DNA of 64,000 nucleotides from Branchiostoma floridae (taxonomy: Eukaryota; Chordata; Leptocardii; Amphioxiformes; Branchiostomatidae), in NCBI RefSeq assembly GCF_000003815.2, contig NC_049995.1, positions 8,119,897-8,183,896 on the forward strand, in the 5' to 3' direction. Below the pieces are notes generated by a model that worked only from the letters and a program-made list of their open reading frames with translations, was not told the DNA's origin and searched no databases. The number at the start of each line of letters is the position of its first letter. The stretch's first letter is position 1. A program made the position numbers and the translations under genes. Below are positions 24,201 to 62,196 of this stretch, piece by piece.

Positions 24201-27200
24201 TAGATCGGTCGGAGCTCGCCGAATTCCAACATCGCCCGAGCTTCGGCTGTAATTTTCGCTGAAAAACTGCCCCTTCACAAATTGGTTGGGGCTTGGACGA
24301 CATCTATCCGACACTAATGATTATATATCCCCGATGGGGTAGCGTGTCTTTGACATTGGCTGAGATGATCATGAAAATCGACGAACCGGTAAAAAGCTAA
24401 TATTTGGATAAGCTTTAACTTCTGACTTTTGGGAAATATGTAGGGCATGAGTGAGTTGGACGGGCACCCTAAAAACTATCATTTTGCGATGGACCAATTT
24501 GCAATCCAAAATCTCATAAAAACTTCAAAAATCGTCGCCGAGTCCTGGCTGAAGTTAACGCAGCGCCCCGCATCGTCCGAAGCCCACGTAGTCGCCCAAA
24601 CTCCGACCATTCTCCGGCTGAAAATGCCCATTCGGAGCTCGTCGACAAGACGGCCAAGCTAAATTCTTGATTTGTGACTCCACTGAAGAGTAAAGCTTGA
24701 CTTTGTACGTCTGAAGGAAACAACTTTTTTTTTAATATGTCTCTGTGGTGCTCAGTGCAGTGGACGAGGGTCGACGGGCGAAAACTGCGCCTGCGTTTTT
24801 TAAAGATCCCCTGCTTCCCTGTAGTCGTATCAGTCTACTGGTATAAACTGTTTGTCTTGTACGTTTCGTATGTCTTTATTTTCATTGGATGTGTCAAGTT
24901 GGCAGGAGTGGGTTGGTGGGAGCTCGGCGGACAAGTAACCTGTCGTTGGTAGCTTGACACATATCTTTTTCATTCCTTTCTCTCTTGTATATTCTTTGAA
25001 ATGTTGACAAAACAAATGAAGAAAAAATCTCAGGTCTCTTTTGTCTAGTTTTCCTTCTTTTGTGATTTTGTTATACCCACTAGGTTAAGTGCAGGTAGTA
25101 CAAAATAATAGTTGACAAATGTAAACATACATTCAATGTTCAAAGATGGGGTATGTGTTCAATTTGTGCTTTGTATCTAATATTCACCGTAGCAGGCGCC
25201 TCTAATACTGTGCAATGGTTAAGTACGAACATGTAGCTCTTAGACAAGGAGGAAGGCGGGCATAATACAGAAGAAAAATTTTGGCGCGGTATTATTTTTG
25301 AGTTCGTGGTGAAAAAAACAACAACGGCGAAAATAAAACGAACGGGAATATTTTGTGCATTTACAGTAAATGCAGCAAGGACAAACCGCATTTTACTGAT
25401 CCGGCGACGGATCCTTTGATCTTCTTCGAGATTATGAGATTAAGTTCTTAAGAAACAGAGATCGTGTAGCCATGTAACTATCTACCGGTCTTGTATGATT
25501 GTGTTTTGCCGGTCTGTTAAACATTGACCTTTTTCTGACAACCGATCTTTCTGAAAGTCCACCCCCACCCCATAGACCCCGTAAAAACTCCAACAGTGTG
25601 CACCAGTTGAGCTGGGCGGGCAAGCAAAGCGTCTATCACCGCGAAGCTTCCTGTGAGTTCACGGTGAGAGTTGTTACCGGGCTGAGTTCACCAGCCCCAC
25701 ATAATTCGCGGTTCGGCTGCCATGCAGTTGTCTCGTCGGGTTGGGCGGGTCTTAATTACCAGTTCACACGAAAGTCGTCAACGCCAAAGGCCATGCACTC
25801 AATCGGCCACTTTGTGTCTCTGATCACTTGAAGATAACAACAACACTGGAGGCTTAGAAAAAAAGACTGCAATGATTTGTCTGATAGTGGTCTAACTAAC
25901 TGTACGTAGAATTTGATCAGTTCTAACATATTCTGTACCTTGAAATTGATAAGGAAACCCCTACTAAAGAAATAAGAACGCGAAAAAAGTTAGCTACGTA
26001 ACTTGATTAATAACAAATATTTGATAATTTGGCCTAATTATCGAGGGGATGTGCCTTTTGGGTGGTTTCTGTGCCCTTTGTGTCCTTTTCCATTGTTTTG
26101 AAATTGTTTTAAATTTTCTAAATGATATTAGATCGTTTGCATTTGGTAGCGAGGTGAAAAGCGTTCTGCTTCCTGAAATTAGCGTAATTTGTGGGCGGTT
26201 TTATAGGCTTTGACGTGTTAAGTGTCGTCGGAACCCCCTTGAAGCCCCTCCTTAATACGCAAGTGAGGAAGCAAGGTCACTTGTTGCCGGGCTAGGTTGA
26301 TCTGGTGCACAAAATTACAGCTTGACCTTTTTATGTCACCTTTCAGACAACACACCCTCCCACTCCACCTCTATTGTTATGTGTTCTCCTGTCTTAAATT
26401 GGTAGAGATATACGGGCGCTGGCGTAGGAAGACAAAAAATGATAGGGGGCACTTGTGTCTCAAAACAAACAAAAAATATTTTTGATCAAGAGCACGTTTA
26501 CTAAATACCAAACATACCGAACAATACAAGCTCTGTTGTCTGTCACGAAAAAGGTCATAAAATTCTTGTCGACGGTCGTGTTTTTTTGTAGTCAAAATCA
26601 AAGCCCAGTAGTTAAAATTCTACGACCAAAACGACTGAACTACTGATGTGACCATACCCTGGCTTCTTTTTAGAATCCGGAGGGTTGTTTTAGAAGCAAA
26701 CTGGTTTCTTGTAGAATCTAGGGGGTTCTTTTTAGAATCTAGAGGGTTCTGTTAAAATCTAGATCATTTTACAATCAAGGGGTACTTTTGGAATCTAGAG
26801 GGTTCTTTAAGAATCTAGAGGGTTCTTTTGAATTTTTTAAAAACAAAGTTGCTTGTTTTAGAATCTAGACGGTTCTTTCTTGAATCTAGAGGGTTCTTTT
26901 AAGAATCTTCAGGGTCCTTTTGGAACCTAGAGAGTTCTTTTAGAAACAAACCAGTAACTTTTAGAATGTAGAGGGTTTTTCTCTAGAATCTAGAGGGTTC
27001 TGTTAAAATCTGTGTGGTTCTTTTTAGAATCTTGAGGGTATTTTTAGTATGTAGGGCGTTCTTTTTAAACTTAAGAAAAATGGTTGATTTTAGAATCGAA
27101 TTGACTCGTTCCTGTGGAAGGTTCTTGTAGAATGTATCGAGCGTTATCTTAGAATCTAGAGTGTTTGTTTATAGTTAAGAGGTTTATTTTAGAATTTCGA

Positions 27201-30200
27201 GGGCTTTTTAGAATATCTACAGTTTTCTTTAGCATCAAAAAGCTTTTGCTTATTAGATATGTAGCTACAACACCACCCCTAAGGGCCAAAATGCAAAGTA
27301 CGTAGTATTTGAGTAGCATTAAGTCCACATGTACAGTGATCTGTTCTTGCGGATGTCACATTGTCTTTGGTATTCTCGTTGTGCATTTACCGTATGATGA
27401 TTAGGGCACGTTTACACCTGATGAGTTTTGTTTCGCATATTCTGTCTCATTCAAAGTTTGCGGTCATTTTTTTTTGTAGGGTAGGTCAAAACTGAAAAGT
27501 AATTTCTTTGCCGCAAACTTTAGTAATTACCAAAGCTAAAGAATGATATTACGCAACTCGATTTGAATATACGTACACGTGTGGACGGGCCCCAACGCAA
27601 TGACGCATGTACCCTGAAGGTACACATTCCTCGGTAAACGTTCTCTGTCCAGAGACGCTACCTTAGCATGGCTGCAACCTATCCTTCATAAAAAAAGTCC
27701 ATCATTTATGAAATAAGTTATAAAAACTTTGCATAACTGTCATATTTGTGTTGACGTGACCTCCTTTGAGTCCTATATTCACTAATGCGTAACAATTGTT
27801 TTGCTCGTTTTGTTCATGTCACTTGATGGGCAAACTTTTATTTTCACTGGCTGGGGGGGGGGCGGCGCTAGTACGCCTTTATCCGTTGGGTAACCTATAT
27901 CCGTTGCTTTTAAAAACAGGGTATTTGGGGACACGTAGACAGATGTTGGTTTAGATTTAACAATATTTTCAGGATATTGCAGTTTAATACTTCCACCCGT
28001 CAAGTTGATATCATAAATACTTTTTAAAAACAACGGATATAGGTTACCCCGCGGATAAAGGTGAACTAGTGTTACCAGGACAGTAGTAACAAACCGTTTT
28101 AGAGAAAATTCGCGCCACAAAAAAATAAAGAAGATGTTGGCGATAACAACCTTGTCAACAGTAGGGCCAGCCGTCGAACTGGTTCATTACGATATGACCT
28201 TTCGATCATAATTATTTTGGGGAGGGGGGCATTGTTCGTGTAACGCCATTTACAAAAGCTGAAAATGATGCGCTTATTTTTTTTGTAAATAATGGAAATT
28301 CTATGGAAAGTGTGTACTGAAATCGACAAAAGTTATGAGAGAGGGTAGCGTGACTTCTCGGAACCAATCAGCGCCTTTCTGAGAATACACGTCACACAAG
28401 GTGCAGCCTACGTCATCCAAATGGGGGGGGGGGGGGGTCAGTTATTCCTCTATTAGTTCTAACTTTATTTTCATATCTTCTAACGCCCTCCGGGAAGTTA
28501 TTGTGTAAACTAACCTATTTGTGACGTCTCAGAGTATCCCATGATCACTTTTCTCCATGCCTTCATCAATTACTAAGATTTGTGTCTTTTTTCTTCTAAA
28601 ATCATGCTATTTATCTTATGGATCATATTCAATTGGTAGAGTCTTTGGTCATACAAATCAAAATTTCGTCGCAGTGTTTTCCATTCAATGGAAAGTGGGC
28701 TTGGAACTAGATAACGATACGTACCCCGCTCAAATGCCATGAGGAATATGGGTGGAGCTTTTTGCTTAAATCGACAGAGGGTGCTCTTGCACCGTCCAAT
28801 TTGAGTCGGTCTGCATTTCGCGGAAGAAGACGGAGTGTACGTACCTTTAACGTCAGCACCCAAACAAGGGATAGGCGGGGCAAGGCAGTACACACATTTT
28901 CGAATGTTTCGAATGTAATGAAAACCACCGCGAACATTTCTGTATTAACGTATTATAATTTATGATGACAATGAATTGACGTTGCTTTCTTGCTACGTTT
29001 TTTTCAGGACTTACGTTGGTTTTGCTCTTGCTCTTGCTGTCCTGTTCATCGCAAGTCCAGTGGAAGGAGGAAAGAAACGTACGTTGGCGCTATTTCTATT
29101 TATCGCACTGTTTCATGTATTCTCTCTTTGCTTACGTGGATAATATATGTGACGTTATATGTTGACGAAAATGTGTACCAAGAACTAAACTTTGGAGTCT
29201 AGGGGGTTGTCTTTAGAATACAGAGATATCGTTTAAGAATGCAGAGGGTTCCTTGTAGAATGTGGTGGGTTCTTTCTAGAATCTAATTATTTGTCAGAAT
29301 CTAGAGATGTATTTCAGAGGTTAACGTTGTTTTTATTATCTAAAATGGACTCCGTTTCTTAGAATCAAGAGGGTTCTGTTATTTGGGAAGGGGTTCTTTT
29401 TAGTTCGGTTTTTTAGGATGCAGTGTATTATCTTTAGAATCTTGTTCTTTTCTTATAATCGAGAGAATAAGGTCTTTTCAGACAGTAAATGGCTCTTTTT
29501 ATGATCTGAAAGATTCTTTTTAGGATGTAAAATGCTATTTTTAGATCAACATAGTTCTTTTCTGGATTTATAAATGGCTTTTTTTAAAAATCTAATGGGT
29601 TCTTTTTAGAATCTAAAGGGTTTCTTTTGGGTTCTAATAGGAATATACTAGCCTGGGTACCATCCGGATAGTAGTTCGCTCCTATGTTCGCTTCACAGAG
29701 AAGCGACTGTATATAGTGTATAATGAATGTCAGAGCTAGAAGCGACTGTATATAGTATATAATGAACGTCGGAGCGAACTACTTTCCGGATGGTACCCAG
29801 GCTCGGAATATACAGGGTCCTATTAGGAATATAATTGAATGATTGTACACTTTCGCCCAACCGATCGAGCTAAGTACAGGTCACAACAAGTCAAAACATA
29901 TATACATATAAAAGTATCACAAATCTAGTCTAACACAAAAGTTCGGCTTCTTCTCGCTTCTTGGTAATAGTGAAAATGTAGGACTGTATGGGTTTAGCTA
30001 TGGTTGGTTTGTCAAAACGCATGAAGAATATAAACTTGTCAGTGCTACTCATGTGTCTAAAATGAGGGAATCTACTTTCTATGTAACTAAATAAAGTATT
30101 TCTATCATTGACATACATATCACAATCAACAGTGAAGTGCACTTCATCTTCTACTATGTATAGAGGGTTCCTCATACATGCCAATGTTGATAATGATATT

Positions 30201-32114
30201 TTCCCCCATACAGCACAATGCAGTGCTATGGTTTATCCTAATGTTGACTGCACCAGCTGCACGTACAATAATGCTCCTGTAGCAACGGCTTCAACGTACA
30301 AGAAGAAGACCATCTGCACCTGTGAATGCGATTTTGGCTGCGTGAGAAGCAGCGGCAAAGCAGTGAGGGAGTGTAAAATCAGGCCTAGGCGTTGGAGCCC
30401 CTCCCCCAGACTTGAGTGCAGTTGTAAGTAAAACTAGTTAATTCTCCTTCATCCGCGGGGTAACCTATATCCGTTGTTGGATTAACTCCGGTCTTTGGGC
30501 GCTACCATTTTGTGTATGATGGGAAGGGATGTTGCGAAATCTGATATGTTAAAGATGACGTGGGATGTTATGAGCATGTTGCTGCGGTCTTGTGAACTTT
30601 TGTTATACACCGAAAACCTCATGTGCATTGTATACTACACTGAACGACCTGTCACACCTAACCTTTACATGTCTCGTTGTAAGCGTCGAGGATGGCTCTA
30701 CCGTATGTGGTGGTGCAACACTGTTATTAAATACCATTTTATTACTCTGTTCATTAGGCAGGTCTTGTGCCGGTCCACCGACACCACCCTTCGACTACAC
30801 ATCTAGTGACTGCACCGGGGGACCATTTGGTTTCGGCACTATCTGTACGTTCGAATGTCCGGCCACCCACACTGTTACAGTCCCAGACGAAAACAGGCAG
30901 CACTACTGTGAGGACGGTAGATGGGTGCCTCATGGGAACGTACTAGATGGATGCGGTGAGTACTGTACCTTATTTATAGCTAAATGATGATCATAAAATG
31001 CACCTAGGTAGCCAGTGAAACGCTCCACCTTACTACTCCAGGTCCAGTATATGACCGGCCTCCTAGAAGAGAGGTCAGTTATTATTTTACAACCCCAGAC
31101 AGCAGAGTTTGTTACACAGACTACTACAATGCTTTTGAAAGAAAATACTCCATAGAGGTCGAAATGACTTTTTTTTTATTATTCTAAATAACACTTGTTC
31201 TCCATTTCATAGCTCTAAATGGAGGATGGTCTGACTGGGTGGATGGCGGATGTAGCGTGACCTGCGGCAGCGGCACCCAGACCCAGACCCGTACCTGCGA
31301 CAACCCGACACCCGAAGCAGGAGGCGCTGAGTGCACCCGGGAGGACAGCACAATGACGACATCGGCAGACAGGGTTGAGACCAAATCGGGCGTCGCATGC
31401 GATTTGGCTCCCTGTCCTCCGGTGGATGGAGGATGGTCCGACTGGGTGGATGGCGCATGTAGCGTGACCTGCGGCGGCGGCATGTACACCCGTACCCGTG
31501 ACTGCAACAACCCCGCACCCGCAAACGGAGGCGCTGAGTGCACGCTGGAGGACGGCACAATGACGGCAGAGGGTGACAGGACTGAGACCGTGGAATCCGG
31601 ATGCAACGAGGACGCCTGCCCGACCGGAGAAGTGCCTACGGTGTTGCCGACAGGAAGTGAGAAAGAATTTTGTCTTCGAATTCAGTCAGGCCCCTTTTCA
31701 CTGGACATCATATATTAGGCCCATTTTCTATCCTTGAGCGATAATTTGCATGGCATATATATATATTGTATCAGAAATCTGAAATCATTAACGATCCAAC
31801 GCTAGTTTACCTTTAACCTCGGGGTAACTTTTATCCGTTGCATTTAAAAACACGGTGTTTAGGGATACACACGGTAGTTTTAAATACGCACAGTAGTTTT
31901 AAATAGCAATATTCTCAAAATATAACAGTTTGAAACCAAGAACCATGTTTTTAAATACAACGGATATTGGTTACCCCATGGTTTAAGGTGAGCTAGGGTT
32001 ACATGCAATGAGATATCTTTCCAACATTGTCACGCTTAAAGGTGAAGGAGATTTTGGTGAAATGCAACTCTCGTTACTATCATTTGTTCGTTTTTTTTTC
32101 TTCCAGGCGCTTGA
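21210..32114 (+). CDS. Gene B: secreted sushi-like/sushi/TSP1-TSP1 modular protein, 311 aa (6 exons)
   Basis: Joining 21,210-21,214, 29,008-29,078, 30,214-30,423, 30,758-30,955, 31,213-31,656 and 32,107-32,114 gives a 936-nt frame from ATG to TGA. Residues 1-22 are a signal peptide (MRTYVGFALALAVLFIASP). Modules follow: degenerate sushi-like (26-95), sushi (96-161) and two thrombospondin type 1 repeats (about 163-305), then a Pro/Thr tail. Each TSP1 repeat has WSDW, a tryptophan C-mannosylation context, and CSVTCG, the O-fucosylation consensus; both are known properties of the family. No membrane span, so secreted. It shares exon plan, intron phases and tail motif with gene A. Candidate roles are matrix binding or humoral recognition; neither is shown by the sequence. 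Confidence 0.83.
21215..23240. other. Gene B intron 1, left part
   Basis: No exon recognised. Short local palindromes occur (for example TTTTGAGGGACAAAATCTC around 22,395-22,435). Confidence 0.4.
23335..23702. mobile_element. Non-autonomous DNA element with AGGGTTGTAGCCAGC ends
   Basis: The left end AGGGTTGTAGCCAGC and right end GCTGGCTACAACC are inverted repeats. The internal stretch ACTATTTCCTGCATTTTGAGG is close to GCTATTTCCTGCTTTTTGAGG inside the element at 62,459-62,743, so the two belong to one family. Confidence 0.75.
23703..26660. other. Gene B intron 1, central part
   Basis: Contains the dispersed repeat copy at about 24,965-25,085 and two related blocks (TTCACACGAAGACTGTCAACG near 24,110 and TTCACACGAAAGTCGTCAACG near 25,762). 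No exon is supported; reading frames here have no domain features. Confidence 0.4.
26661..27240. repeat. TTTTAGAATCTAGAGGGTTCT minisatellite, block 1
   Basis: Degenerate tandem array with a unit of about 20-21 bp. Many units carry the palindrome TCTAGA followed by GGGTTCTTT. It lies in gene B intron 1. A second block of the same unit lies in intron 2, on the other side of exon 2. Confidence 0.85.
27241..27863. other. Gene B intron 1, between satellite and MITE
   Basis: Unique-looking sequence with no exon or repeat recognised. Confidence 0.4.
27864..28075. mobile_element. 'TTTATCCGCGGGGTAACC' foldback MITE, copy 2
   Basis: Good copy with both ends: GCCTTTATCCGTTGGGTAAC at left, ACGGATATAGGTTACCCCGC and GGATAAAGGTGAACTAG at right. 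A long inner palindrome (CAATATTTTCAGGATATTG) marks its centre. Confidence 0.88.
28076..29007. other. Gene B intron 1, right end
   Basis: Includes a run of 16 G at 28,423-28,438. Reading frames on both strands around 28,570-28,960 have no recognisable domain and no matching splice context, so no gene is called. Confidence 0.4.
29008..29078 (+). CDS. Gene B exon 2: signal-peptide exon
   Basis: Acceptor TTTTTTTCAG, donor GTACGT. Encodes the rest of the signal peptide (TYVGFALALAVLFIASPVEG) and GKK. Phase 2 in, phase 1 out, as in gene A exon 2. Confidence 0.82.
29193..29648. repeat. TAGAATCTAGAGGGTTCTTT minisatellite, block 2
   Basis: Same degenerate 20-21-bp unit as 26,661-27,240, here in gene B intron 2. 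The array is interrupted by the foldback element at 29,649-29,804 and resumes for a short stretch to about 29,836. Confidence 0.8.
29649..29804. mobile_element. Foldback MITE (AGCCTGGGTACCATCCGG ends), 156 bp, with target duplication
   Basis: The left arm AGCCTGGGTACCATCCGGA...GTAGTTCGCTCC pairs with the right arm GGAGCGAACTACTTTCCGGATGG...CCCAGGCT. The direct repeat GGAATATAC flanks it at 29,640-29,648 and 29,805-29,813, a likely target-site duplication of 8-9 bp as made by hAT-type elements. An AGAAGCGACTGTATATAGT unit is repeated in its middle. Confidence 0.88.
29844..30190 (-). mobile_element. LINE reverse-transcriptase C-terminal fragment (minus strand)
   Basis: On the minus strand, 30,184 down to 29,930 encodes VEDEVHFTVDCDMYVNDRN and a downstream Lys/Arg-rich tail. 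This is the same post-RT zinc-knuckle-like region as at 7,355-7,597 (IEDVYHFIVDC...). Only the end of the element is present. Its 5' side stops about 25 bp before the acceptor of gene B exon 3. Confidence 0.75.
30214..30423 (+). CDS. Gene B exon 3: degenerate sushi-like module
   Basis: Acceptor CCCCATACAG, donor GTAAGT, phase 1-1, 210 nt. Cysteine-rich (CTSC, then CTCECDFGC, then Cys and a terminal Cys after a Trp). GCVRSSGKA matches GCVRSAKKG of gene A exon 3. Confidence 0.85.
30432..30478. mobile_element. 'TTTATCCGCGGGGTAACC' MITE, end fragment
   Basis: Only one terminal arm (CATCCGCGGGGTAACCTATA and CCGTTG) survives, 8 bp after the donor of gene B exon 3. Confidence 0.75.
30758..30955 (+). 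CDS. Gene B exon 4: sushi (CCP) module
   Basis: Acceptor TTCATTAG, donor GTGAGT, phase 1-1, 198 nt, the same length as gene A exon 4. Key residues: CRSC at the start, FGTICTFEC in the middle, then Cys, DGRW and a final Cys. The acceptor was chosen over a CAG 4 nt downstream because it restores Cys-Arg-Ser-Cys and keeps the phase. Confidence 0.88.
31213..31656 (+). CDS. Gene B exon 5: two thrombospondin type 1 repeats
   Basis: Acceptor TTTCATAG, donor GTGAGA, phase 1-1, 444 nt. Two TSP1 repeats begin at about 31,221 and 31,425. Each has GGWSDWVDG, CSVTCG and six cysteines ending in APC or DAC. They are very similar to each other (a recent internal duplication) and GC-rich compared with the flanking introns. 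PTGEVPTVLPTG follows. Confidence 0.93.
31799..32002. mobile_element. 'TTTATCCGCGGGGTAACC' foldback MITE, copy in gene B intron 5
   Basis: ACGCTAGTTTACCTTTAACC at left, ACGGATATTGGTTACCCC and GGTGAGCTAGGGTTAC at right, with ACGGTAGTTTTAAATA repeated near the centre. It ends about 100 bp upstream of the last exon. Confidence 0.82.
32107..32114 (+). CDS. Gene B exon 6 (coding part, 8 nt, stop)
   Basis: Acceptor TCTTCCAG after a long T-run; completes Ser, adds Ala, then TGA. Phase agrees with exon 5. An alternative is read-through past 31,656 to the stop near 31,716, which would add about 20 residues. Confidence 0.6.
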
Positions 32115-41100: not shown

Positions 41101-44100
41101 TAAGTCTGTATTGGGCGTGTTACAAAGCTAAAAACGGTGCTACTCTCGTGGTTGTGCAATCTTTCCGTATGTGCCGCAACACCTACGATGACCTGAGCAC
41201 GCGGCGGTGGCGTATTGTTTACTTTGAGTCACGCCGTGCGACAAGCGGACTGAAGTCTTCTTAATGACCAACGGCTGGAATGAGTCACACATCTCGTTTT
41301 ACACCTAGGCTAGAACAAACAATGTTGGTCAGGTGACAATTGTGTACACTTGTGTGGATTTCAAAGGGTTGCATCATACCCTGTGCATAACAGTTGGAGC
41401 AGTGCCATGGGGAAATAAGGGGGAAATCTTTGCAACACAAAATCATCACAATAGTTCATCTGTGTTCGTAGTCAGTTAAATGTAGTACAGGGCTCTTTTT
41501 CAACAATGAATTGTAGTGAATTTTTGCCAGTCTTTTTTTGCAGTGTTCTTCAAAATTCAAATGGTTCAATTTCAGCTTTACCCAATTTTTTGTGCTTTTA
41601 CAACTAAGACCTTTTTTGTGCTTTTGAGAACTTTTTACACGAGTGTATCCAATGTAATTGCAAAATGTCTTTATATATAGCAGCATGTATGTATAAAATC
41701 ATGTGTAGCAATAAACAATGATCTTAATGTTGCGATAATTCAAGTTTTTAACTGCCAAATCATCCTTACTTAGAAAGATGCATGAATTTTTCCAGTTTTA
41801 GAAGTTGTTCAACACCAAAAGTGTGTGTCACGATATCATACCCAGCTGTTACACACACAAGTTACTCATGCTCACACCCTACATTGTGATGTGGCAATGT
41901 GGATACAATGACATCATGTAGTGGAAAAACTTCACACCAACTCGCTACATACTCCCCTCTCTCCTTACCTCTGTGATAATTAAAACCTAATTGATTTGTT
42001 TAATTTGGATGTGTTAATTGGATTCTACTGCAGCTTGGCTTCCAAAAATCAAGCCAATTTTTGTTGGTTAACTGGTTCACAATGAGTTGTACTACTGCAT
42101 GCTTGTATAAATTGCTTTCTGTTAAATTTACTCATTATAATGGTATAGTATATACAAACCATTACCCAATTCTGGTTATTCTGTTCCAAAATTATCACAG
42201 TTGTCCTAGCTAGCTTATATGTCGCTTAGGAAATTTCCATGAGATTGCTACGCGATTTCCTGCGAGCATTAGGCCTCGGATAATCGGGTTAAACCGCCAC
42301 GAAGGTCGCATACTCCAGTATGCAAATGAGGTGGGCGTGACCGGTGGCACGAAGGGGTGGGTTGTTGCATCACTCCGTGTGTAATAGGGGGGCAATTTCT
42401 GGTCATAGGACCAGTATGTACACAAACAGCATGTGATTCTGTTTTGAACTGAAGTCTGATGTAATTCTGCATTGCAAAACTGTTTTGTATTTCATTCAAC
42501 AAATTATCTTGTGACCATCTTGAAATACTGGTGACACTATGTACATGTACAAGTAAACATTGCCTTGTGTTGCATCATGTGTGTTAGTGTTATAGTCTCT
42601 TCAGTGTCTTGGTATTTTCAGTATCCTTGATTCTTGAACTGGAGTCATAACATAGCTTATGATTTAATATCCAGAACATTCTAGAACATTCTGTTTACAA
42701 CTAGATGCTTAGCTTTTTTTGTTGTTGCAAAATCACTGACTGGTGAATAATGAAAACATTTTTTTGTGTGTGTGAATTCTGTCTATTAACTTGGTATAGT
42801 ATGCAGAAGAAAAAGATGAAAATATGAATAAAATGAGAATCCAATTTTTTTCTATGTTTGGGACTTAAATTCTTATGTATATATTGTATGCAGATTCGAA
42901 ATGCAGTCAAAAGCAATGGCAAAAAATGATGTTGAAATTTTTTGGTGTTGACAATTTTTTGTTGTTGTGTTTCCGCGCAGGTTTTAGAGATCAGTCGTTA
43001 CCGTGAGGCCATGGCAGCTAACTTCAACGTACTACCTCACGACAATGTCAACCAGATCGTAGAAGTCATCCTCGGCAACAAGAACGCTTACGTTTTCTTC
43101 GAGCGTAGTCACGGCGACATGCACTCGTACGTGCGGAACAAGCGCCGGCTGAAGGAAGAAGAGGCCGTGTGGTTGTTCTTCCAGATCGTGTCCGCGGTCG
43201 CTCACTGTCACGATAACGGGGTCGTGCTACGAGACCTCAAGCTGCGAAAGTTCGTCTTCCAAGACCCAGAAAAGTAAGTTTCCCCATTTCTAAGACAACC
43301 ATAATGTTTTTACTCATAAGATGAAACACCTGTTTTGTAAAAAGCCCTATTGCAAAATACTGCAGTCTTGTGAAAAAAGACTTACTGCAAAATACTGCAG
43401 TCTTATAAAAAGCCTTACTGCAAAATACTGCAGTCTTGGGAAAAAAAGAGTTGCTGCAGTAAGGTTTTTTACAAGGCTGCAGTATTTTGCAATAAGGCTT
43501 TTAACAAAACAAGTGTTTTGAAAAGATCGAAATCCATCCACGGTGGTAAAAAAATACGCGGGTGATGTTGACAGAACCTTTTGAGCCGCGGAAGTGTCCA
43601 CTTCCCGCATGTTTAGATTACCTCAGGTTAGAAGGAAGTTGTTTGTTGGATGAGACGGGGTTTTAGGTTTCTGTGTCAGTACAAGAGCTAACTGTACAGT
43701 ATAGTAGGCGTTTGTTTTGTAGGCTGGGTCTTAGATAGTTATCCGAACCAGAATCTCAAGTGTTTTGAGTAAGGGTCAGTTAGTGAAGTCTTTTCCCATG
43801 ATGGTGTGTTGTTCAGTGCTTTTACTAATTTAGCTACAGTGCTCTTCAACTTTTTTGTCTTTCTTTTTAGTTCTTTTTAATGTTGGTTCACCTTTATCTG
43901 TGGGGTGACCTATATCTGTTGCTTCCCCTAAAAACGTGGTTTTTAGGAATATCAAGTCAACGGACTTGGTTTCAAATTGTAAGATTTTAATACATATTTC
44001 AGTTTGAAACCACTGTCCACCGATTTCATATCCCTTTAAACTCTCTGTTTTTAGATACAACAGATATAGGTTACCCCACGGATAAAGGTGAACTAGTGTT

Positions 44101-50100: not shown

Positions 50101-53100
50101 GGATATAGGTTACCAGCCTTGTCAAAACAAGGCGGCAGGCGGCGATTTTAGCCACCTACTTACATTTTTCCAGCCGGCTACTTTGGGGTAGAATTTAAAA
50201 AAATAAAAGTTTAAATCCAGTGCTCCCAGTTACAAAATCCCCCAGCAATTTGTTTTGATAAACCTCTGGCAGTTTTCTGATAGTTGGCCCCCGGTTAGGG
50301 GTCTTAGCGGGGAACCTATGCCAAATTTTTTTGAAATTCAGGATTTTTTTGTTAATTCAAAGTTTAAAGATAACAATAAAAGTTACCCAAAATACACCCC
50401 CAAACCATATTTAGGGGTCTAAATTCAAAAATTTTCCCAGGCCCCCCAGACCCCCCCTACGGGAAGGGGGGACACCCCACTCCCGTACCCACCCCCCGCT
50501 CGCCACTTCGTGGCTCGCCGCAAGCCGCTATGCGCCTTGCCTGCTACTTTCATATATTAGCCCCCTACTCTAAAAGTTTGTGACAAGGCTGGGTTACCCA
50601 ACGGATAAAGGTGACCTAACGTTATATACCTCAGGATTACTAATACTGCATTGGTACATCTCTTTGAATTACTGTTAATTCATATATTTTTTGTATTAAT
50701 TTATGGGATCTGGTGTAGTTATTAGAGTTAATGTTATATTTAGGAGAATGCATTGGTTTGGAAATTCGACGTTTCTCTCTCATATTGCCCCACAAGATTT
50801 TCCCTGACAAGGCCACTAACATGGTTGCTTGGCGTCGGGGAAACTCTGGTCCCTTGGGCTGTACTTCAAACACGAGCAGACGGAGTTTGGCGTTTTGCCA
50901 AGTGTATCACGCAGTAGGAAAATGTCTGCCTGCCAGCGCCTCATTTGCATTGGACGTATTCCAATCGGTCTGCCTGTGTGGGTTTTGAAAATAGGGTGGG
51001 CCATTTTCCGCTGCGTCTTTTTTTGGATGCCGCGAAATTTCTAGCGCTGAAAGAGATGTTAAAGGTGGATGTGGGAAGATGGATACAGTTTTGGTGTTTT
51101 GCTCATTTTCTTACCAACAATGACTTGGACTGTTCCATTTTTGGATGTGGATAGGGGTGGTAGGATGTTCCTTTTGAAATGAATTAGGATGGCCAAAAAT
51201 CCAGTCGCTTTCAATGATTAGTAAATGAAAGGTATTGGAGGAAGAGAGATCACAATAGTAAGTTGATACATCAAAAGTTCAAGTTGAATTCATTTTTATA
51301 CAGAAAAGAAACATGCAAAGCAAATTGTACAACTAAGTGTGAACAAGGGTCATTCTCCAATTGTCATAAAAATCTAATTATCTAATCGACCAATCAATGC
51401 CTTTGTCTATAAAAAGACTGACACTAGAACAATCTAAAGTTGACTATAACCTTCATAGCCATAGAAGCTTCTTACCAAAATCAAACTATAAAAAAAACAC
51501 AGTATGAACTGTAAAAAAAAGATCTTGACACATTTATTTGCTGTCTGACCCTGTCGTATATGTAGGTGGCCCTGAACCACATATTTGTGCCTACGTGTGC
51601 GTTTTGTTCGTTGCTTAGTCCTTGCTGGACGCTGTTACCTTCGACCTACGGTCACAGGAAGTGGGCAGTCTCCAGAACAAATATTTACACACGATATAAA
51701 GTCCGCCTAAACGCATGATGGTGACCTAACGTCCTCCAATCGGATGGCAGCGTTCTCTAGGTAAAGGGGGGTTTGCCAAAGGTGGGGTTGTGTGTGGCGT
51801 CTGATGTACTGTAAATTTGTTTAAAGTTTGCTCGACTCAAATTTCATAGCACAGTGAAAATCTTAGCATTTGTGGTATTTTTGAGCTCTTTGTTGCAACA
51901 ATTGCAATAGTAGTATGGAAAATTCATTGTATATTTGCTTGTAGGTGATTGAGAAAAGAAATCAAACTTAAAGATGCGGCAAAAGTTTCAGACTTTACAG
52001 TACATAGGTCAGCTTGTACCCTAAGGTCATCGACCTTGTGGCATTTGCTTACTGGGCTTGTCCATATTTGATAAGGGCCAGAATCCAGGTGAAAGATCAT
52101 TAGGGCCTGTAGTGACATGTAAAATTTATTGTAGGTCTTAGAAGTCAGGAAAATGCATGAAAGCTGAATATTATTGTGTGGCTTAGACTCTGAGTTAGAG
52201 TTTGGTCCTGAAGACATTCTAAATAGGAAAGCATAGAACATGCAATTTGATACAAGAAATCTACGAGTTATGCAGTCAAAACTTGTCATGCTTGTGATGC
52301 TTGTCATGTGACTTAACAGGCTAAGATCCTTCCCAAGTTCCTATGCTGTAAAAAAATCCTTATGGAAACCCTGCAGGAGTATTTTACAAGTGAAGCAATC
52401 CAAAGGCCAGATTTCAAAAAGTAGGACTCTGGGAGACTGGAATTACATATTGCCTCTTGCGTAACTTGCAAGTTTGTCACAGTGAGTCAGATCTCTGGTT
52501 CGTCAGCAAGTTTTATTTATGAAGCTATTTTAGCCCACCCCTCCCAAATGTGTCGGTGTGAAAAGGCCATGTTATATATAGGAAGACATGTGAGTGACTG
52601 ACATGCGCGTTATGTCACTGTGTACTGATGACTACTCCGACGGATGTAGCTAAAGAGTGACATACATTGTAGGCTAAAGAAAGGGACACAGTCAGTTTTT
52701 GGCCATGTACAAAAATAAGCAAAGTTTATCAATTAGTTTTGGGGTTAAGTCTAGAATAGAACCTAAGATATGTTACAAACTATTATTTATTAGTATTTTT
52801 ACAATAATTTCAATTCCATGAGGCCAACATTGCTGTGTTTTTTAAAACTTTGGTGCACTTTTTGTCAGTAAATCTGGAAGGGTTTCAAAGCATTTATATA
52901 TAAGGGAGTGAAGTTTGTCATTTCAGATTACCTTGTTTGATTACGAAGTTTTTCACTCTTTGCTATGTGGGAATGAAGAGTTGCTTTTCTTTCTTGTTTT
53001 TAAATGTGTCTCTTTTCTTTCTTGTCATTAAATGTGTCTCTTTTCTTTCTTGTTTTTCCTGCAGAACTCAGCTGAAACTCGAGAGTCTGGAGGACACGTA

Positions 53101-53536
53101 CCTCCTGCAGGACCCTCGCGACGACCGGCTCAACGACAAGCACGGCTGTCCCGCGTACGTCAGCCCCGAGATCCTCAGCACGCAGGGGAGCTACTCAGGA
53201 AAGGCGGCCGACGTCTGGAGCCTCGGAGTCATGCTGTACACCATGCTCGTGGGGCGATACCCGTTCCACGACACCGAACCCCAGGCGCTGTTCACCAAGA
53301 TCCGCCGCGGGATTTTCACGGTCCCGGAGGGGATATCGTCGAAGGCGAAGTGTCTGATTCGCAGCTTGCTGCGACGAGAACCGTCGGAGAGAATGACCGC
53401 GAGAGAAGCGTTAGAGCATCCGTGGTTCAAGGCTAACTTCCCCATTAGTGTAAGCGGGAAGGCGGAGCCGAAAGTACCTGACCAGATTGTTCCTGATTGG
53501 TGTATGGAGGAGGATGAAGCCTCCTTATTCAGCTGA
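37908..53536 (+). CDS. TRIB: Tribbles pseudokinase, 337 aa (3 coding exons)
   Basis: Exons 37,908-38,156, 42,981-43,273 and 53,065-53,536 give a 1,014-nt frame. The product is a scaffold that links substrates to the COP1 ubiquitin ligase and to MAPK kinases. Residues 1-50 are a Pro/Ser-rich N-terminus; the pseudokinase domain spans about 52-302. The glycine-rich loop is lost, Lys83 of VCK is kept, the HRD motif is LRDLK (166-170), and DFG is replaced by SLE (188-190), a family hallmark. The APE region (YVSPEI) and [11 protein letters not shown] are intact. AxEHPWF (296-302) corresponds to the MEK-binding motif and DQIVPDW (320-326) to the COP1-binding motif. It is probably the single pre-duplication orthologue of TRIB1/2/3. 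NSMCE2 lies downstream, as in human. Confidence 0.95.
38157..42980. other. TRIB intron 1 (4.8 kb)
   Basis: No exon or complete mobile element recognised. At 42,270-42,420 a CG-richer stretch contains ATGCAAATGAGG (octamer, about 42,319), a possible regulatory block. Confidence 0.5.
42981..43273 (+). CDS. TRIB: TRIB exon 2
   Basis: Acceptor TTCCGCGCAG, donor GTAAGT, phase 0 in, phase 2 out. Contains the Tribbles-specific stretch [17 protein letters not shown], then [12 protein letters not shown] and the catalytic-loop remnant [12 protein letters not shown]. Strong GC bias compared with the flanking intron. Confidence 0.96.
43325..43517. repeat. Strong foldback in TRIB intron 2
   Basis: Three direct copies of an ACTGCAAAATACTGCAGTCTT unit are followed by inverted copies (CTGCAGTATTTTGC). 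The outermost arms ACACCTGTTTTGTAAAAAGC and GCTTTTAACAAAACAAGTGT pair over about 40 bp with few mismatches. It begins some 50 nt after the exon 2 donor, so the pre-mRNA would fold into a hairpin there. Confidence 0.85.
43885..44102. mobile_element. 'TTTATCCGCGGGGTAACC' foldback MITE in TRIB intron 2
   Basis: GGTTCACCTTTATCTGTGGG at left, TTACCCCACGGATAAAGGTG and AACTAGTGTTAC at right; a central palindrome of the GTTTCAAA/TTTGAAAC type. Both termini are present. Confidence 0.88.
44370..44480. promoter_or_regulatory. Candidate CRE-containing element in TRIB intron 2
   Basis: A non-repetitive, CG-richer stretch with a perfect TGACGTCA at 44,398-44,405, embedded in otherwise AT-rich intron. Motif evidence only. 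Confidence 0.25.
44770..44804. promoter_or_regulatory. Inverted pair of octamer motifs with homeodomain core
   Basis: ATGCAAAT (44,770-44,777) and ATTTGCAT (44,787-44,794) face each other with a 9-bp gap, followed by a CAATTAG homeodomain-type core. It resembles a POU-factor binding site but could also be a remnant of a palindromic repeat. Confidence 0.3.
45180..45543. mobile_element. AGGGTTCTAGCCAGG-family DNA element
   Basis: CAGGGTTCTAGCCAGG at the left and CTAGCTAGAACCCTG at the right are inverted ends. The inside repeats TTAGCATAGTGG/TTAGCGTAGTGGCC. Flanks on both sides are homologous to the uninterrupted stretch 45,648-45,712, so the element inserted into one copy of a local duplication. 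Related copies: 23,335, 46,049, 60,416 and 62,459. Confidence 0.75.
46049..46229. mobile_element. AGGGTTCTAGCCAGG-family element, short copy
   Basis: Left CAGGGTTAGTGCATTTTTAG, right CCTGGCTAGAACCCTTA, with internal GGACCACTACGCTA strings as in the neighbouring copy at 45,180-45,543. Confidence 0.6.
46230..47658. other. TRIB intron 2, nothing coding seen
   Basis: At about 47,095-47,170 a tRNA-like string (TAGTCCAATGGTCAGTGTCC, then GGTCTGGAGTTCAAATCTTC) looks like the head of a SINE. There is no acceptor stem, so it is not a tRNA gene. The remainder is unremarkable. Confidence 0.4.
47659..49254. mobile_element. Pogo/Tigger-like DNA transposon, 1.6 kb, non-autonomous
   Basis: Terminal inverted repeats CAGTGAAACCTGTCTATAGG (left) and ...CTAAGGCAGGTTTCACTG (right) are bounded by TA on each side, the target of Tc1/mariner and pogo elements. 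CAGTGAAACC termini are characteristic of the pogo/Tigger branch. Sub-terminal blocks repeat GTGGCCCCTATA and GTGACCGCTAT. No transposase frame is seen, so it is internally rearranged or deleted. It lies in TRIB intron 2. Confidence 0.85.
49255..49963. other. TRIB intron 2, nothing coding seen
   Basis: AT-rich, no exon or repeat family recognised. Confidence 0.4.
49964..50625. mobile_element. 'TTTATCCGCGGGGTAACC' MITE split by a later insertion
   Basis: The left part (to 50,113) ends ...ATGGATATAGGTTAC and the right part resumes at 50,592 with GGTTACCCAACGGATAAAGG, so the right arm is split within its own end sequence. The left terminus is truncated. Confidence 0.85.
50114..50591. mobile_element. 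Nested 478-bp DNA element with 11-bp inverted ends
   Basis: CAGCCTTGTCA (50,114-50,124) and TGACAAGGCTG (50,581-50,591) are perfect inverted repeats. GGTTAC is duplicated at both sides (50,108-50,113 and 50,592-50,597), a 6-bp target-site duplication inside the older MITE. The interior is C-rich (runs of CCCCCC) and has no coding capacity. It is the younger of the two elements. Confidence 0.88.
50730..51060. other. CG-richer unique block in TRIB intron 2
   Basis: Stands out from its AT-rich surroundings by base composition and lacks repeat signatures. It contains ATTTGCAT (about 50,943) within CCTCATTTGCATTGG. The reading frames on both strands show no domain. It may be a cis-regulatory block. 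Confidence 0.3.
51061..53064. other. TRIB intron 2, right end
   Basis: AT-rich intron; a TTTTCTTTCTTG-type pyrimidine repeat at 52,985-53,055 forms an extended polypyrimidine tract before exon 3. No gene seen. Confidence 0.45.
53065..53536 (+). CDS. TRIB: TRIB exon 3
   Basis: Acceptor TTTTCCTGCAG; the first base completes a Lys codon. Encodes LESLEDTYL (SLE in place of DFG), [55 protein letters not shown] and the DQIVPDW tail, then TGA. Very GC-rich compared with the intron. Confidence 0.97.
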
Positions 53537-57892: not shown

Positions 57893-58094
57893 ATGTCTGA
57901 TGAGCACCAAGAATTCATCATAACTTGTGATGTGCTATCCCCCATGCAGACCCTCATCAGTATGGCGGTGAGCGCGGCCCACTTCCGTAACCTGGACGTT
58001 TCTCTGAACAGTCTGAAGGAATACAGTAAAAAATATGTCCTGACCGGGATGGAGTTTGCCTCTGAGGTTGCGCTGGATGTGCAGGAGATGTCTG
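57893..58094 (+). CDS. NSMCE2: NSMCE2 exon 1 (first coding)
   Basis: Starts at the first ATG after an in-frame stop. The donor is weak: G|GTTGGT rather than GTRAGT. It is preferred because it gives phase 1, which exon 2 needs (G+CC = Ala). The C-terminal part GMEFASEVALDVQEM matches the start of the human helical region. Confidence 0.8.
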
Positions 58095-61000
58095 GTTGGT
58101 TGATTTTGAATAACTTTGCAGACTTATGGTTTTTATGGAGCATCGGTGTTTGTTTATTTTTTGGGAGAGCTTCATTTTTTGTATTCTCAACATGGTCGAA
58201 GGTCAGGGCATGGTTGGACAAGTCCACTAGCCCGATTGTCCAGGGCAAGTGAAAGTGTCCATCGGGCAAGTGAATGTCCTTCCCCACTTGTCTGATCGGG
58301 CAAGTAAGATTTTTCCATGAGATTTTTATATACATGTTGCTTATCACAGTTACTGCATCAAGCATTGGTCAACACAGAAAAAATAGAGCCAATGATAAAA
58401 GAATTCCATTGCTGCATGTGTAAATACATAGTGAAAATTGTTAGTTAAATTTTTGGGCAAGCAGAAAGCTGGTTCGGGCAAGTAAATTTTGCATGTATTT
58501 GCCCGATAGGACAAGTACCGATACTACTAGTACACACACCTATACAGTCTGTAGTATCATGTTTCAAAATCTTAAGACCTCGTGGGTTTAATTTAATTCA
58601 TAGTCAAGTTCAACCATCTTGTTGCCTCCACAGCCAATGAGGAGCAGGTACAGCAGCTGGAAGACGTGATGGTGGAGTACGCGGCGATGGAACGAGACCT
58701 GAACCAGTTTGTACTGGCTGTGGAGACTGTCAAACAACAGGTGAGACCTGAACCAGTTTGTACTGGCTGTGGAGACTGTCAAACAACAGGGGAGACCTGA
58801 ACCAGTTTGTACTGGCTGTAGAGGCGGTCAAACAACAGGTGAGACCTGAACCAGTTTGTACTGGCTGTGGAGACTGTCAAACAACAGGTAAGACCTGAAT
58901 CAGTTTGTACTGGCTGTGGAGACTGTCAAACAACAGGGGAGACCTGAACCAGTTTGTACTGGCTGTGGAGACTGTCAAACAACAGGTGAGACCTGAACCA
59001 GTTTGTACTGGCTGTGGAGACTGTCAAACAACAGGTAAGACCTGAATCAGTTTGTACTGGCTGTGGAGATGGTCAAACAATAGGTGAGACCTGAACCAGT
59101 TTGTACTGGCTCTGAAGACTGTCAAACAATAGGTGAGACCTGAACCAGTTTGTACAGGCTGTGGAGACAGTCAAACAACAGGTGAGACCTGAACCAGTTT
59201 GTACTGGCTGTGGAGACTGTCAAACAATAGGTGAGACCTGAACCAGTTTGTACAGGCTGTGGAGACAGTCAAACAACAGGTGAGACCTGAACCAGTTTGT
59301 ACTGGCTGTGGAGACTGTCAAACAACAGGTTAGGCCTGAACCAGTTTGTACTGGCAGTGGAAACGGTCAAACAACATGTGAGACCTGAACCAGTTTGTAC
59401 AGGCTGTGGAGACGGTCAAACAACAGGTGAGACCTGAACCAGTTTGTACTGGCTCTGAAGACTGTCAAACAATAGGTGAGACCTGAACCAGTTTGTACAG
59501 GCTGTGGAGACAGTCAAACAACAGGTGAGACCTGAACCAGTTTGTACTGGCTGTGGAGACTGTCAAACAACAGGTTAGGCCTGAACCAGTTTGTACTGGC
59601 AGTGGAAACGGTCAAACAACATGTGAGACCTGAACCAGTTTGTACAGGCTGTGGAGACAGTCAAACAACAGGTTCAGTCTCTTCTTGATACAGTTCATGT
59701 TGATATTATTACATTGTCAGGGCTCGAAAGATTTATTTCTGCATCCCTGCAGTGGTGTAGGTAACATTGAAACTTTTCTGCACCAGACAAACTCTACCTG
59801 CACCACTATGAGCTTAGGAGGTATGGATCATACTTAAGTTGTTCAGAAACCATTCCTTTTTTTTTCGTCTACTTTTTAGGTGGTAACAGTCAATGCAGCT
59901 AATAACAATCCATATACATGTACACATACATTTACATCATATGACATTTATGTATAAAACTCAGTACATGGACCAGTGCAGGTTAGGAGCAGGTAGACAT
60001 CATAGATACCTGCACAGGTCCAATTTTTAGCTGCACTAACCTGCATATGCAGATGGTATTTCGAGCCCTGATTGTTGTTATTTCACTGCAAAAATTTGAA
60101 TTATCAATTTAAATAATGATGATTAATACAATTTACAAATTGACTGTTTCAAAGTTGTTAAAGAAATGGCACATTTTTGTTAATTTCTGTTTTTCTTTCT
60201 TTGTTATTTTAGGTGAAAGATGGGGAGCTGTCCGACCGTGTAGCTGTGGAGAAGGCTCTGAGTGAACAGCTGGAGGCTGGACAGCAAGGGAACAGCAAGG
60301 AACAGCTGCTACAGCATGAGATGATCGCTGGGCTACAGGAGAAACTTCGGGAACTCAAGGGTAGGCTGTTATGCTGTTTGTGTTAGCGTTATAACATAAT
60401 AGTGTTGTTTTTATGCAGGGTTCTTCCCAGAATTGCTTAGTATAGTGGATCCGGAGGGGCTGGCAAAAATAACCTGAACCAACGCGCTGCATTTTCATGA
60501 AAATGGGTTCATTTTGCAATGACAGAGGGTGTCAAATACTATAAGTATAATATAATATTATACTGATTCCTTTGTTGTGAAGTGGCAAAACCACTATTTT
60601 TTTTATCATCACCCATTCACAAGTTTTTGCAGACAATGCCCACTGGAAAAATGATGGCGCAAAAATCTGTGAATTTTCATTAATTTCAGCAACACTAACC
60701 AAGAAAATAGGGAAGAAACAAACTAAAGTTTAAAAGTAGTATAGTGGAGCTGGGCTAGGAGTATAGTGGAGGGCCTACGTTATTCCATTCTCTCTGGAAA
60801 ACTCTGTTTTATGGTTGAAGGGTTTGAAAGTCGAATCAACAGAATTTGTTGCCCAATTTGCAAGGGCAAAACAAGACATCAACCTGTATATGCATAGGCT
60901 TGTCATAACAGTATTCTCAAATAGGATTTTATGCAGATTAACATAGTATGATATCCTTCTGAACTGAAAACAAAAAAATGTGCACATCTGTACATCCAAA

Positions 61001-62196
61001 ATATTCCAACAAGTCTACAGAAAGAGTTTAACACACAGGCTGCATAAGACTGAACTGTAAGGTTTGATCAACTTTAAGACTTGTTGGCTGTGATACTATC
61101 AGTATGTTTTATCACTTCAATTCTTGTTACAATATTTATGGTGTCTGTCGGTTACTGAATATAATGCTAGTTCGCCTTTATCCTGTTAACCTATATCCAT
61201 GGTATTTCAAATTACAATATTTTCAAAATATTACAGTTTGAAACCACCATAAAATTTGCTTAAATCTTTGCCAACCACAAAACCGCCATGCTATCTTTTA
61301 GGTGAAGAAGAATCGGAGCCCTCCCCTCAGCCAGGCGGGTCCCAGGCGGGAGGCGACGATGATGATGACCTTGAGATCGAGATGACCCAGACAGAGGTCA
61401 ACATGAAGTGCCCTTTGACCCAGCAGGAGTTCAAGGAACCCGTGAAGAACAAGAAGTGCGGGCACGTGTACGACAAGGGTCCCATCCTACAGCACATACG
61501 CAGGAAGAGGGGAGTCAAGGGCGGGGTCAAGTAAGGAGTTATTCTATCATGATGTAACATCCATTATCATAATATCGCCACGTTTACGACGATATCTCAA
61601 GCCATACTGATTTGACAAATTGTCAATGCATCATTTTCTCCAGTTACATGTTGCTGTTACAGCTTGCCTTTGCCATTTCTTCTGTGTATCTTATTTTGTC
61701 CTGCCATAAACTTAATATCGATGAACGTGACAGTGTGTTCGTCCCACGACGAGCTCGCCTGCCCTGAAAAAGAACTGAAAACTTTTGGCCTTGTTGTCTT
61801 CGAACGCATCATTATCGAAGCCTTTTTAAAAATGCATTGAACATATGAATGTCTTAAGTGTTCATACCTAAAAAAAAACTGTATAATGTACTAGTAGATC
61901 TCATTGAAATCATCTCTAATTTATTTGTCGTTAATATGATCAGTGGCGGTATTATAATACTGGAAGTCCTCTTTCCCGCTACCGTGAAATTAATCCCCGC
62001 GAAATTAAATGCATTCACAGTATTCAGAGTATTATGTCTTATTCCGTTGTTCAGATGTCCCGTTGGAGCGTGTGCGAATAACGACCCCGTCACGGAGCAA
62101 GACTTGGAAGACGATGTGGAGATGAGAAAAAAGATCCAGAAGAAGAACAGACAGGCAGGGAGGAAGGATGCACGCAACAGGGACATGCCCTTCTAG
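57893..62196 (+). CDS. NSMCE2: NSMCE2/MMS21 SUMO E3 ligase, 275 aa (5 coding exons)
   Basis: Exons 57,893-58,094, 58,634-58,740, 60,213-60,360, 61,302-61,530 and 62,055-62,196 give an 828-nt frame. The product is the SUMO ligase subunit of the SMC5/6 complex in DNA repair. The N-terminal half is helical (GMEFASEVALD; VEYAAMERDLNQFVLAVE) and in this family packs on the SMC5 coiled coil. An acidic patch of five Asp (171-175) precedes the SP-RING. The zinc ligands are visible as Cys205 and His207 in KKCGHVY and Cys230 and Cys235 in KCPVGAC; Cys189 in KCPL is also kept. The tail is basic (MRKKIQKKNRQAGRK). Length is close to the human protein (about 250 aa). TRIB is the upstream neighbour. In-frame TAA at 57,884 supports the chosen ATG. 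Confidence 0.92.
58211..58526. mobile_element. CGGGCAAGT-rich dispersed element in NSMCE2 intron 1
   Basis: Multiple GGGCAAGT and GGACAAGT motifs in both halves (GCCCGATTGTCC, ATCGGGCAAGTGAA, TGCCCGATAGGACAAGTACC). The arrangement suggests a decayed DNA element, but I do not see clean inverted ends. Confidence 0.45.
58634..58740 (+). CDS. NSMCE2: NSMCE2 exon 2
   Basis: Acceptor TGCCTCCACAG, donor GTGAGA, phase 1 in, phase 0 out. Encodes the heptad-like helix NEEQVQQLEDVMVEYAAMER and DLNQFVLAVETVKQQ. The last 45 nt plus the first 4 intron nt form unit 0 of the 49-bp array that follows. Confidence 0.93.
58745..59673. repeat. 49-bp minisatellite made from the exon 2 end and its splice donor
   Basis: Nineteen further head-to-tail copies of the unit at 58,696-58,744 (exon 2 coding end GACCTGAACCAG...CAACAG plus intron GTGA), all exactly 49 bp with no indels; the last is cut short. 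Variants form higher-order units: a 3-unit (147 bp) pattern at 58,745-59,087 and a 5-unit (245 bp) pattern in 59,186-59,673. Most copies keep a potential donor (GTGAGA or GTAAGA). Units 1 and 4 have GGGGAG and units 13 and 18 have CATGTG instead. A unit of 49 bp shifts frame, and reading on from exon 2 meets TGA in the next copy but one, so the array cannot be translated as a longer repeat domain. Confidence 0.97.
59718..60072. mobile_element. DNA element with CAGGGCTCGAAA ends
   Basis: CAGGGCTCGAAAGATTT (left) and TATTTCGAGCCCTG (right) are inverted repeats, flanked by ATTGT on both sides as a short target duplication. The inside contains CCTGCAGTGG and ACCTGCATATGCAG palindromes and no coding sequence. 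It lies in NSMCE2 intron 2, 45 bp after the minisatellite. Confidence 0.85.
60213..60360 (+). CDS. NSMCE2: NSMCE2 exon 3
   Basis: Acceptor TTATTTTAG, donor G|GTAGGC, phase 0 in, phase 1 out. Encodes a charged, glutamine-rich helical stretch (KALSEQLEAGQQGNSKEQLL) that links the SMC5-binding helices to the SP-RING. Confidence 0.85.
60416..60772. mobile_element. AGGGTTCT-family element, decayed, NSMCE2 intron 3
   Basis: Starts GCAGGGTTCTTCCCAGAATT with TTAGTATAGTGGATCC inside and GAGTATAGTGGAGGGCC near its right side, as in the element at 45,180-45,543. The right terminus is not clear. Confidence 0.5.
61162..61257. mobile_element. 'TTTATCCGCGGGGTAACC' MITE, left half
   Basis: AATGCTAGTTCGCCTTTATC at left, then the CAATATTTTCAAAATATTAC centre and TTTGAAACCACC; the right arm is missing. 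It stops about 45 bp before the acceptor of NSMCE2 exon 4. Confidence 0.8.
61302..61530 (+). CDS. NSMCE2: NSMCE2 exon 4: acidic linker and SP-RING start
   Basis: Acceptor CTATCTTTTAG, donor AA|GTAAGG, phase 1 in, phase 2 out. Encodes EEESEPSPQPGG, five Asp, then MKCPLTQQEFKEPVKNKKC and GHVYDKGPILQHI, which is the first half of the SP-RING and is nearly identical in layout to the human sequence. Confidence 0.96.
62055..62196 (+). CDS. NSMCE2: NSMCE2 exon 5: SP-RING end and basic tail
   Basis: Acceptor CCGTTGTTCAG; the first base completes Lys. Encodes CPVGAC (the last two zinc ligands), DPVTEQDLEDDVEMRKKIQ and a basic tail ending RDMPF, then TAG. Confidence 0.93.

Follow-up and report, generated by a model that had tools for sequence, protein, structure and literature searches.

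The stretch analysed here (the window) comprises 64,000 nt of the Branchiostoma floridae genome, C17:8119897-8183896, and contains a gene whose second coding exon runs into a long tandem array. The 252-residue protein predicted from its exons carries a Pfam zf-Nse domain (9e-20), and residues 7-242 match the human E3 SUMO-protein ligase NSE2 (chain 9lwj_J, 7.7e-30); judged from its sequence, the gene appears to be the lancelet orthologue of NSMCE2, a DNA-repair SUMO ligase. Tandem Repeats Finder places a minisatellite of period 49 at 58694-59673 on the + strand, with 20.0 copies, 91% matches, 0% indels and a score of 1673, far above chance expectation. A first-pass annotation of this DNA had named both the gene, with an exon-derived unit, and a 20-copy indel-free minisatellite, and both are borne out by these searches. 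The array is not the singular object that this annotation took it for: exon-boundary tandem arrays are a described lancelet class, termed mirages (PMC3087553, PMC3902484), donor arrays recur across the genome, and the NSMCE2 array is a new, long member of the class. The features of the locus are as follows (a slash within a motif marks the exon-intron boundary).

57962..62196, + strand: NSMCE2 coding region, 252 aa, exons placed by eye
57962-58094, 58634-58740, 60213-60360, 61302-61530, 62055-62196, + strand: NSMCE2 exons, gene model by eye
58634..58740, + strand: NSMCE2 coding exon 2 (107 nt, donor in phase 0), encoding part of the sequence that aligns with human NSE2
58694..59673, + strand: 49-bp minisatellite of 20 copies; copy 1 contributes its first 47 nt to the exon, and the remainder of the array is intronic
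58741..60212, + strand: array-bearing intron, 1,472 nt (541 nt minus the 19 extra units)
58741..58742, + strand: 5' splice site taken as authentic, CAG/GTGAGA; computed U1 duplex -11.6 kcal/mol
58790..58791, + strand: dead donor of copy 2 (GG); copy 5 has the same change at 58937-58938
58798..58800, + strand: in-frame TGA in the second downstream copy, reached when a donor beyond copy 2 is used
59672..59673, + strand: GT of the last copy, followed by TCAG (CAG/GTTCAG); U1 duplex -7.4 kcal/mol

The unit consists of the final 47 nt of coding exon 2 (58694-58740), as its end is set in the by-eye gene model, plus the GT of the donor. This phase follows from the flanking bases, because a C precedes copy 1, where the other units end in T or G, and TCAG trails the last copy; the division into 45 exonic nt and four intron bases proposed earlier is thereby corrected. 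The exonic piece encodes RDLNQFVLAVETVKQQ, a segment covered by the alignment with human NSE2, and we therefore regard the exon as the origin of the unit and its intronic copies as secondary. The earlier label "exon 2" is right for the coding exons; any exon within the 5' untranslated region would make the repeat-bearing exon number 3. Copy 1 equals the consensus, and copies 4, 6, 7, 13 and 18 are identical to it; altogether there are 10 unit types, 15 columns vary, and the minor alleles number 17 (9 transitions, 8 transversions). As the substitution events are so few, the absence of indels is probably only mildly informative. Copies 11-15 differ from copies 16-20 at 2, 0, 0, 0 and 1 positions per pair, and a fraction of 0.00465 of 20,000 unit shuffles did equally well at lag 5, which is modest after correction for the ten lags tested. 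Of the two multi-unit expansion patterns put forward earlier, the 5-unit period thus has this modest support, and the 3-unit period was without significance in the same shuffles (0.16 at lag 3). When the genome (513,431,437 bases in 431 contigs) was searched with the unit, all 19 matches among the best candidates scored fell within the array, and the NSMCE2 locus is present once in the assembly searched; the dispersal of the unit elsewhere in the genome, which the annotation had named as a refutation of its reading, was not found among these candidates.

Eighteen of the 20 copies keep the GT and 16 read AG/GT; copies 2 and 5 read GG, and copies 14 and 19 read CAT/GT. Downstream of the first donor there are consequently 17 decoys with GT, 12 of them [C/T]AG/GTRAG, so that decoy donors are present as the annotation had said, in numbers that differ from its estimate of about 15. 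U1 pairing energies, computed with ViennaRNA, were -11.6 kcal/mol for copies 1, 3, 6, 10, 12, 15 and 17, -11.5 kcal/mol for copies 4 and 7 (GTAAGA), -9.8 kcal/mol for copies 8, 9, 11 and 16 (TAG/GTGAGA), -8.1 kcal/mol for copies 13 and 18, and -5.0 kcal/mol for copies 14 and 19. The strong first donor lies on a duplication junction, because the GAGA after its GT stems from the next exon copy; the GT of the last copy is probably the donor that existed before duplication. Only the first donor yields the full 252-aa protein (0 of 19 downstream donors do so). Donor 2, which is GG, would yield 113 aa, and the remaining 18 (17 with GT) all yield one 99-aa product ending at the TGA at 58798-58800, in agreement with the frame break and stop noted before. 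Exon and downstream intron meet at a single ordinary junction and the array lies within that intron; the protein is readable without an extra intron.

Similar arrays are found throughout the genome. A search for three CAGGTRAG motifs spaced by 41-71 bp gave 2,799 + 2,510 = 5,309 matches, with 8 + 12 = 20 for the reversed control, and a spacing of 72-102 bp gave 1,989 + 2,287 = 4,276, with 20 + 12 = 32 for the control; these counts are of overlapping unit triplets rather than arrays, and many arrays are counted in both searches. At exactly 49 bp there were 26 matches in 9 places and at exactly 44 bp 91 matches in 11 places, with a control of 0 in each case; one period-44 donor array (G000 C15:16547681-16550736) extends over about 3 kb with dozens of units. 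Such strict patterns undercount, because NSMCE2 itself has no three consecutive CAGGTRAG. The matches listed for the 41-71 bp search (roughly 100 rows) occupy 13 places in the first 2.4 Mb of C1, which extrapolates to about 700 places genome-wide when scaled by rows and about 2,800 when scaled by length; both figures are crude because the rows cover only the start of one chromosome.

The excess is polar for the motifs tested. When one position of the motif was changed to give the poor donor CAGGTYAG, 656 matches were obtained (control 208), and the acceptor motif TTTGCAGG gave 55 (control 21). A much looser acceptor pattern, YYYNCAGG, gave 5,317 matches and 2,203 in the control, a 2.4-fold excess as against about 265-fold for the donor; the true ratio of donors to acceptors needs annotation, because the motifs are not equally representative of the two. 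Single occurrences in samples of 62,900 and 57,912 bases were 1 and 9 for CAGGTRAG, 3 and 23 for CAGGTYAG, and 4 and 7 for TTTGCAGG; the samples are small and biased and indicate only that they hold no unusual abundance of the donor motif. Acceptor arrays do occur, as in BflGb6, and there is perhaps one at a dynein exon (L041, other strand); this is a reading by eye, and the open frame behind it had no PDB match and an AAA_16 match (0.016) below the cut-off.

We examined 33 arrays, including that of NSMCE2, and for 20 of the 32 others the neighbouring reading frame was submitted to Pfam or PDB. A homologous frame upstream of the first donor was found for 8 of these 20, with the homologous stretch ending 0 to about 33 codons before the donor:

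L040: axonemal dynein, 6.9e-8 (PDB); homology ends about 33 codons before the donor
L041, plus strand: AAA_7, 3.4e-6 (Pfam)
L042: AAA_8, 9.8e-11 (Pfam); homology ends about 12 codons before the donor
L043: TALPID3, 6.3e-8 (Pfam)
L051: Na_Ca_ex, 3.7e-7 (Pfam); homology ends 9 codons before the donor
L063: KIF9, 2.9e-6, below the Pfam cut-off
L064: GH16 glucanase, 7.1e-6 (PDB)
L067: MAP4K3, 5.7e-12 (PDB)
Arrays with no coding exon end tagged on the donor strand: L040 second array, L041 minus, L045, L046, L047 (which adjoins unread bases, N), L049, L050, L053, L054, L059, L060, L061

Pfam gave no support for L044, L048, L041 minus, L052, L053, L055, L056, L057, L058, L065, L066 and L068, nor for L040, L064 and L067, all three of which PDB later supported; a Rep_1 match for L056 (0.088) was discarded, and PDB was likewise without support there. 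Exon ends tagged by eye recur over at least 15 nt in the neighbouring array in 18 of 21 cases, recurrence being weak for L041 (6 nt) and L064 (7 nt) and absent for L039. Units from different loci are nearly all unrelated, with similarity at E<=1e-3 in 2 of the 528 pairs. Amplification in this genome is donor-biased and repeatedly independent. Where unit limits are clearest (12 cases), units include 15-57 nt of exon and 2-46 nt of intron, a span on which we rejected a breakpoint pinned to the donor. Among 13 exon-end arrays, whose frames come partly from open reading frames alone, phases 0/1/2 number 4/3/6, and in 11 of them a stop codon is met in frame ahead of the first [C/T]AGGTRAG decoy (the exceptions are L043 and L040); this is partly automatic, because a phase-2 donor supplies the stop through its own GTRA. 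An apparent axonemal dynein heavy-chain region (G000 C1:218000-246000; L040, L041, L042, L060) holds at least 5 separate arrays. A query with a lancelet-derived fluorescent protein gave 68 exon matches with identities of up to 88% (C4, C17, C14 and C3), which we take as a sign of a lancelet genome; in one such gene an exon part matches twice, 98 bp apart (G000 C17:14896751-14896834 and 14896849-14896932), which may, on this match, be another exon-end duplication.

These observations provide the basis for a model of the NSMCE2 mirage that we regard as probably correct. A 49-bp segment, 47 exonic nt and GT, would have been duplicated in tandem, creating at the two-copy junction the sequence CAG/GTGAGA, predicted to exceed in donor strength the flank that remains after the last unit, CAG/GTTCAG; the first copy would therefore have acquired a good donor with its reading frame exactly preserved. 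We restrict this statement about the junction to NSMCE2, because the search pattern selects strong internal donors. Later exchanges of one to several units each would have enlarged the array to 20 copies. The first donor to be transcribed would pair with the nearby 3' splice site of the 107-nt exon while the remaining array leaves as intron, and the array would thus be near-neutral for the protein. Selection would then act as a filter: transcription of a donor array reaches the true site ahead of all decoys, but in an acceptor array it meets the decoys beforehand, and these would spoil the exon, so that arrays with the true site first would be spared and a donor bias would result. We infer this order of events, the use of the first donor, the neutrality and the selective origin of the polarity from the arrangement described above. 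More tentatively, and at somewhat less than even confidence, we suggest that 5' splice sites, rather than acceptors, are preferentially and independently amplified in lancelet genomes, at several hundred exon ends at least, and that splicing consistently takes the first of the near-identical donors.

Several points weigh against this model. The choice of donor at NSMCE2 is read from sequence. In vitro work with duplicated donors in globin constructs reportedly favoured the intron-proximal of identical donors, contrary to the choice that the model assumes. Because CAGGTYAG also exceeds its reversed control, some of the excess is not donor-specific. Of the 20 arrays submitted to Pfam or PDB, 12 had no homology support, and for 12 of all 33 no coding exon end is tagged on the donor strand. 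The Adh3 evidence for undisturbed splicing, discussed below, comes second-hand, through two later papers (PMC3087553 and PMC3902484). Finally, the polarity could be mutational rather than selective.

This last alternative survives best, and we give it perhaps a minor chance. The donor sequence, or something bound to the donor or to the nascent RNA, would itself promote tandem duplication, as the contrasts between donor and acceptor and between CAGGTRAG and CAGGTYAG would suggest. The breakpoints of the units, however, are not fixed at the donor, and selection alone predicts the same bias; nothing separates selection from mutation here, because both would give a donor bias. We consider it improbable that the array is a quantitative control in which more copies bring more mis-splicing, more nonsense-mediated decay and less NSMCE2. 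The 17 GT decoys, each giving the early-stop 99-aa product, would suit such a role, but copy 2, the nearest downstream, and copy 5 have lost GT, arrays adjoin exons of unrelated genes, and Adh3 data together with globin RT-PCR (reverse transcription and polymerase chain reaction) are reported (PMC3087553) to suggest that lancelet mirages leave regular splicing undisturbed. The proposal in the first-pass annotation that copy number sets SUMO-ligase output is accordingly without support, and donor arrays recur across the genome, with nearly all units unrelated among the 33 arrays examined; some nonsense-mediated decay may occur at NSMCE2.

Still less probable is a shorter array inflated by mis-assembly. 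According to published accounts, a globin mirage was aberrantly assembled in the draft genome (PMC3087553), and PGBD5 repeat copy numbers differ between two B. floridae sequence versions (PMC3902484). The NSMCE2 array has unique flanks on both sides, its 5-unit order is unlikely by shuffling, and the mixture of ten unit types argues weakly in the same direction; there are independent published examples, and according to PMC3902484 its original sequence was confirmed when reads were re-examined. We see scarcely any prospect that each AG/GT unit is a recursive, zero-length-exon splice site for stepwise removal of the intron: AG/GT does end 16 of 20 units, but no pyrimidine tract precedes the AG (consensus CAAACAACAG), and an animal intron of 49 nt would be very short. 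A dispersed satellite or transposon with CAGGTRAG in it, which the high total count might suggest, is the least probable explanation and is largely refuted for the arrays examined by the unrelated units and by the exon ends recurring in their local arrays.

If the more tentative suggestion of donor amplification at several hundred exon ends is true, these arrays would constitute a natural test of first-come donor choice and perhaps also, in view of the in-frame stops ahead of most first decoys, of frame-aware choice. Choice among identical splice donors has been addressed mainly with artificial constructs. A single mirage would be a curiosity, but perhaps hundreds of independent donor arrays would amount to a ready-made experiment on this question, for which the donor-over-acceptor asymmetry yields a direct prediction, namely that the first-transcribed site wins.

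Other features of the window were also noted. The repeated exon has a 3' splice site, CCTCCACAGCC (58623-58635), that is complementary over at least 10 nt to GGCTGTGGAG in many units, and four 13-nt pairs were listed between this region and the units; such units may be able to pair with and mask the splice site, though perhaps the complementarity is due to chance. Right behind the array, in the same intron, an element at 59717-60071 carries terminal inverted repeats of 13 bp that match perfectly (TCAGGGCTCGAAA) and resembles a small non-autonomous DNA transposon. Upstream of NSMCE2, on the + strand, lies a Tribbles-family kinase gene (42982-43273, read by eye, and about 53065-53536, which matches TRIB1 at 7.6e-63); human TRIB1 and NSMCE2 are neighbours too, and the pairing may therefore be ancient. 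The tandem-repeat reading also covered 10949-11345, 29699-29775 and 43339-43458, and no exon boundary was seen in the units of these repeats within the window. At 26668-27069 a 20-21 bp repeat (TTTTAGAATCTAGAGGGTTC) is present in about 17-20 copies, with scattered relatives near 29236 and 29600, and an open frame on the + strand at 31188-31718 encodes two repeats (GGWSDWVDG..CSVTCG) that we take to be thrombospondin type-1-like.

Compared with known systems, the NSMCE2 array agrees in anatomy with the amphioxus mirages of Adh3, the globins BflGb6 and BflGb9 and troponin C, and with the similar repeats of PGBD5. A title-level literature search, with most subscription journals outside its reach, brought up among the titles listed none that announces a genome-wide survey of lancelet exon-boundary arrays. 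In the passages of PMC3087553 and PMC3902484 consulted, many but not all mirage units carry AG/GT, and unit sizes are 10-160 bp in the cases given; NSMCE2 is a cephalochordate gene whose 49-bp unit crosses an exon end placed by eye (47 exonic nt and GT) and carries AG/GT in 16 of 20 copies and GT in 18. BflGb6, an acceptor array, has 6 and 3 units in two haplotypes and Adh3 shows somatic instability (PMC3087553); PGBD5 provides cases of 60- and 108-bp repeats, and troponin C is cited (PMC3902484). NSMCE2 is not among the mirage genes named in those passages, its 20 copies exceed the 6 and 3 given for BflGb6, and what goes beyond the passages is the scale and polarity of the donor arrays. In the Rogers model of intron gain by tandem duplication across an AGGT proto-splice site, as cited in PMC3087553, the duplicated segment likewise contains AG/GT; unlike in that model, the NSMCE2 array sits within one ordinary intron and requires no additional one. 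Ordinary intronic minisatellites of the variable-number tandem repeat type likewise consist of multi-unit repeats that presumably arise by unequal exchange, but the NSMCE2 unit, in contrast to theirs, holds coding exon and a 5' splice site.
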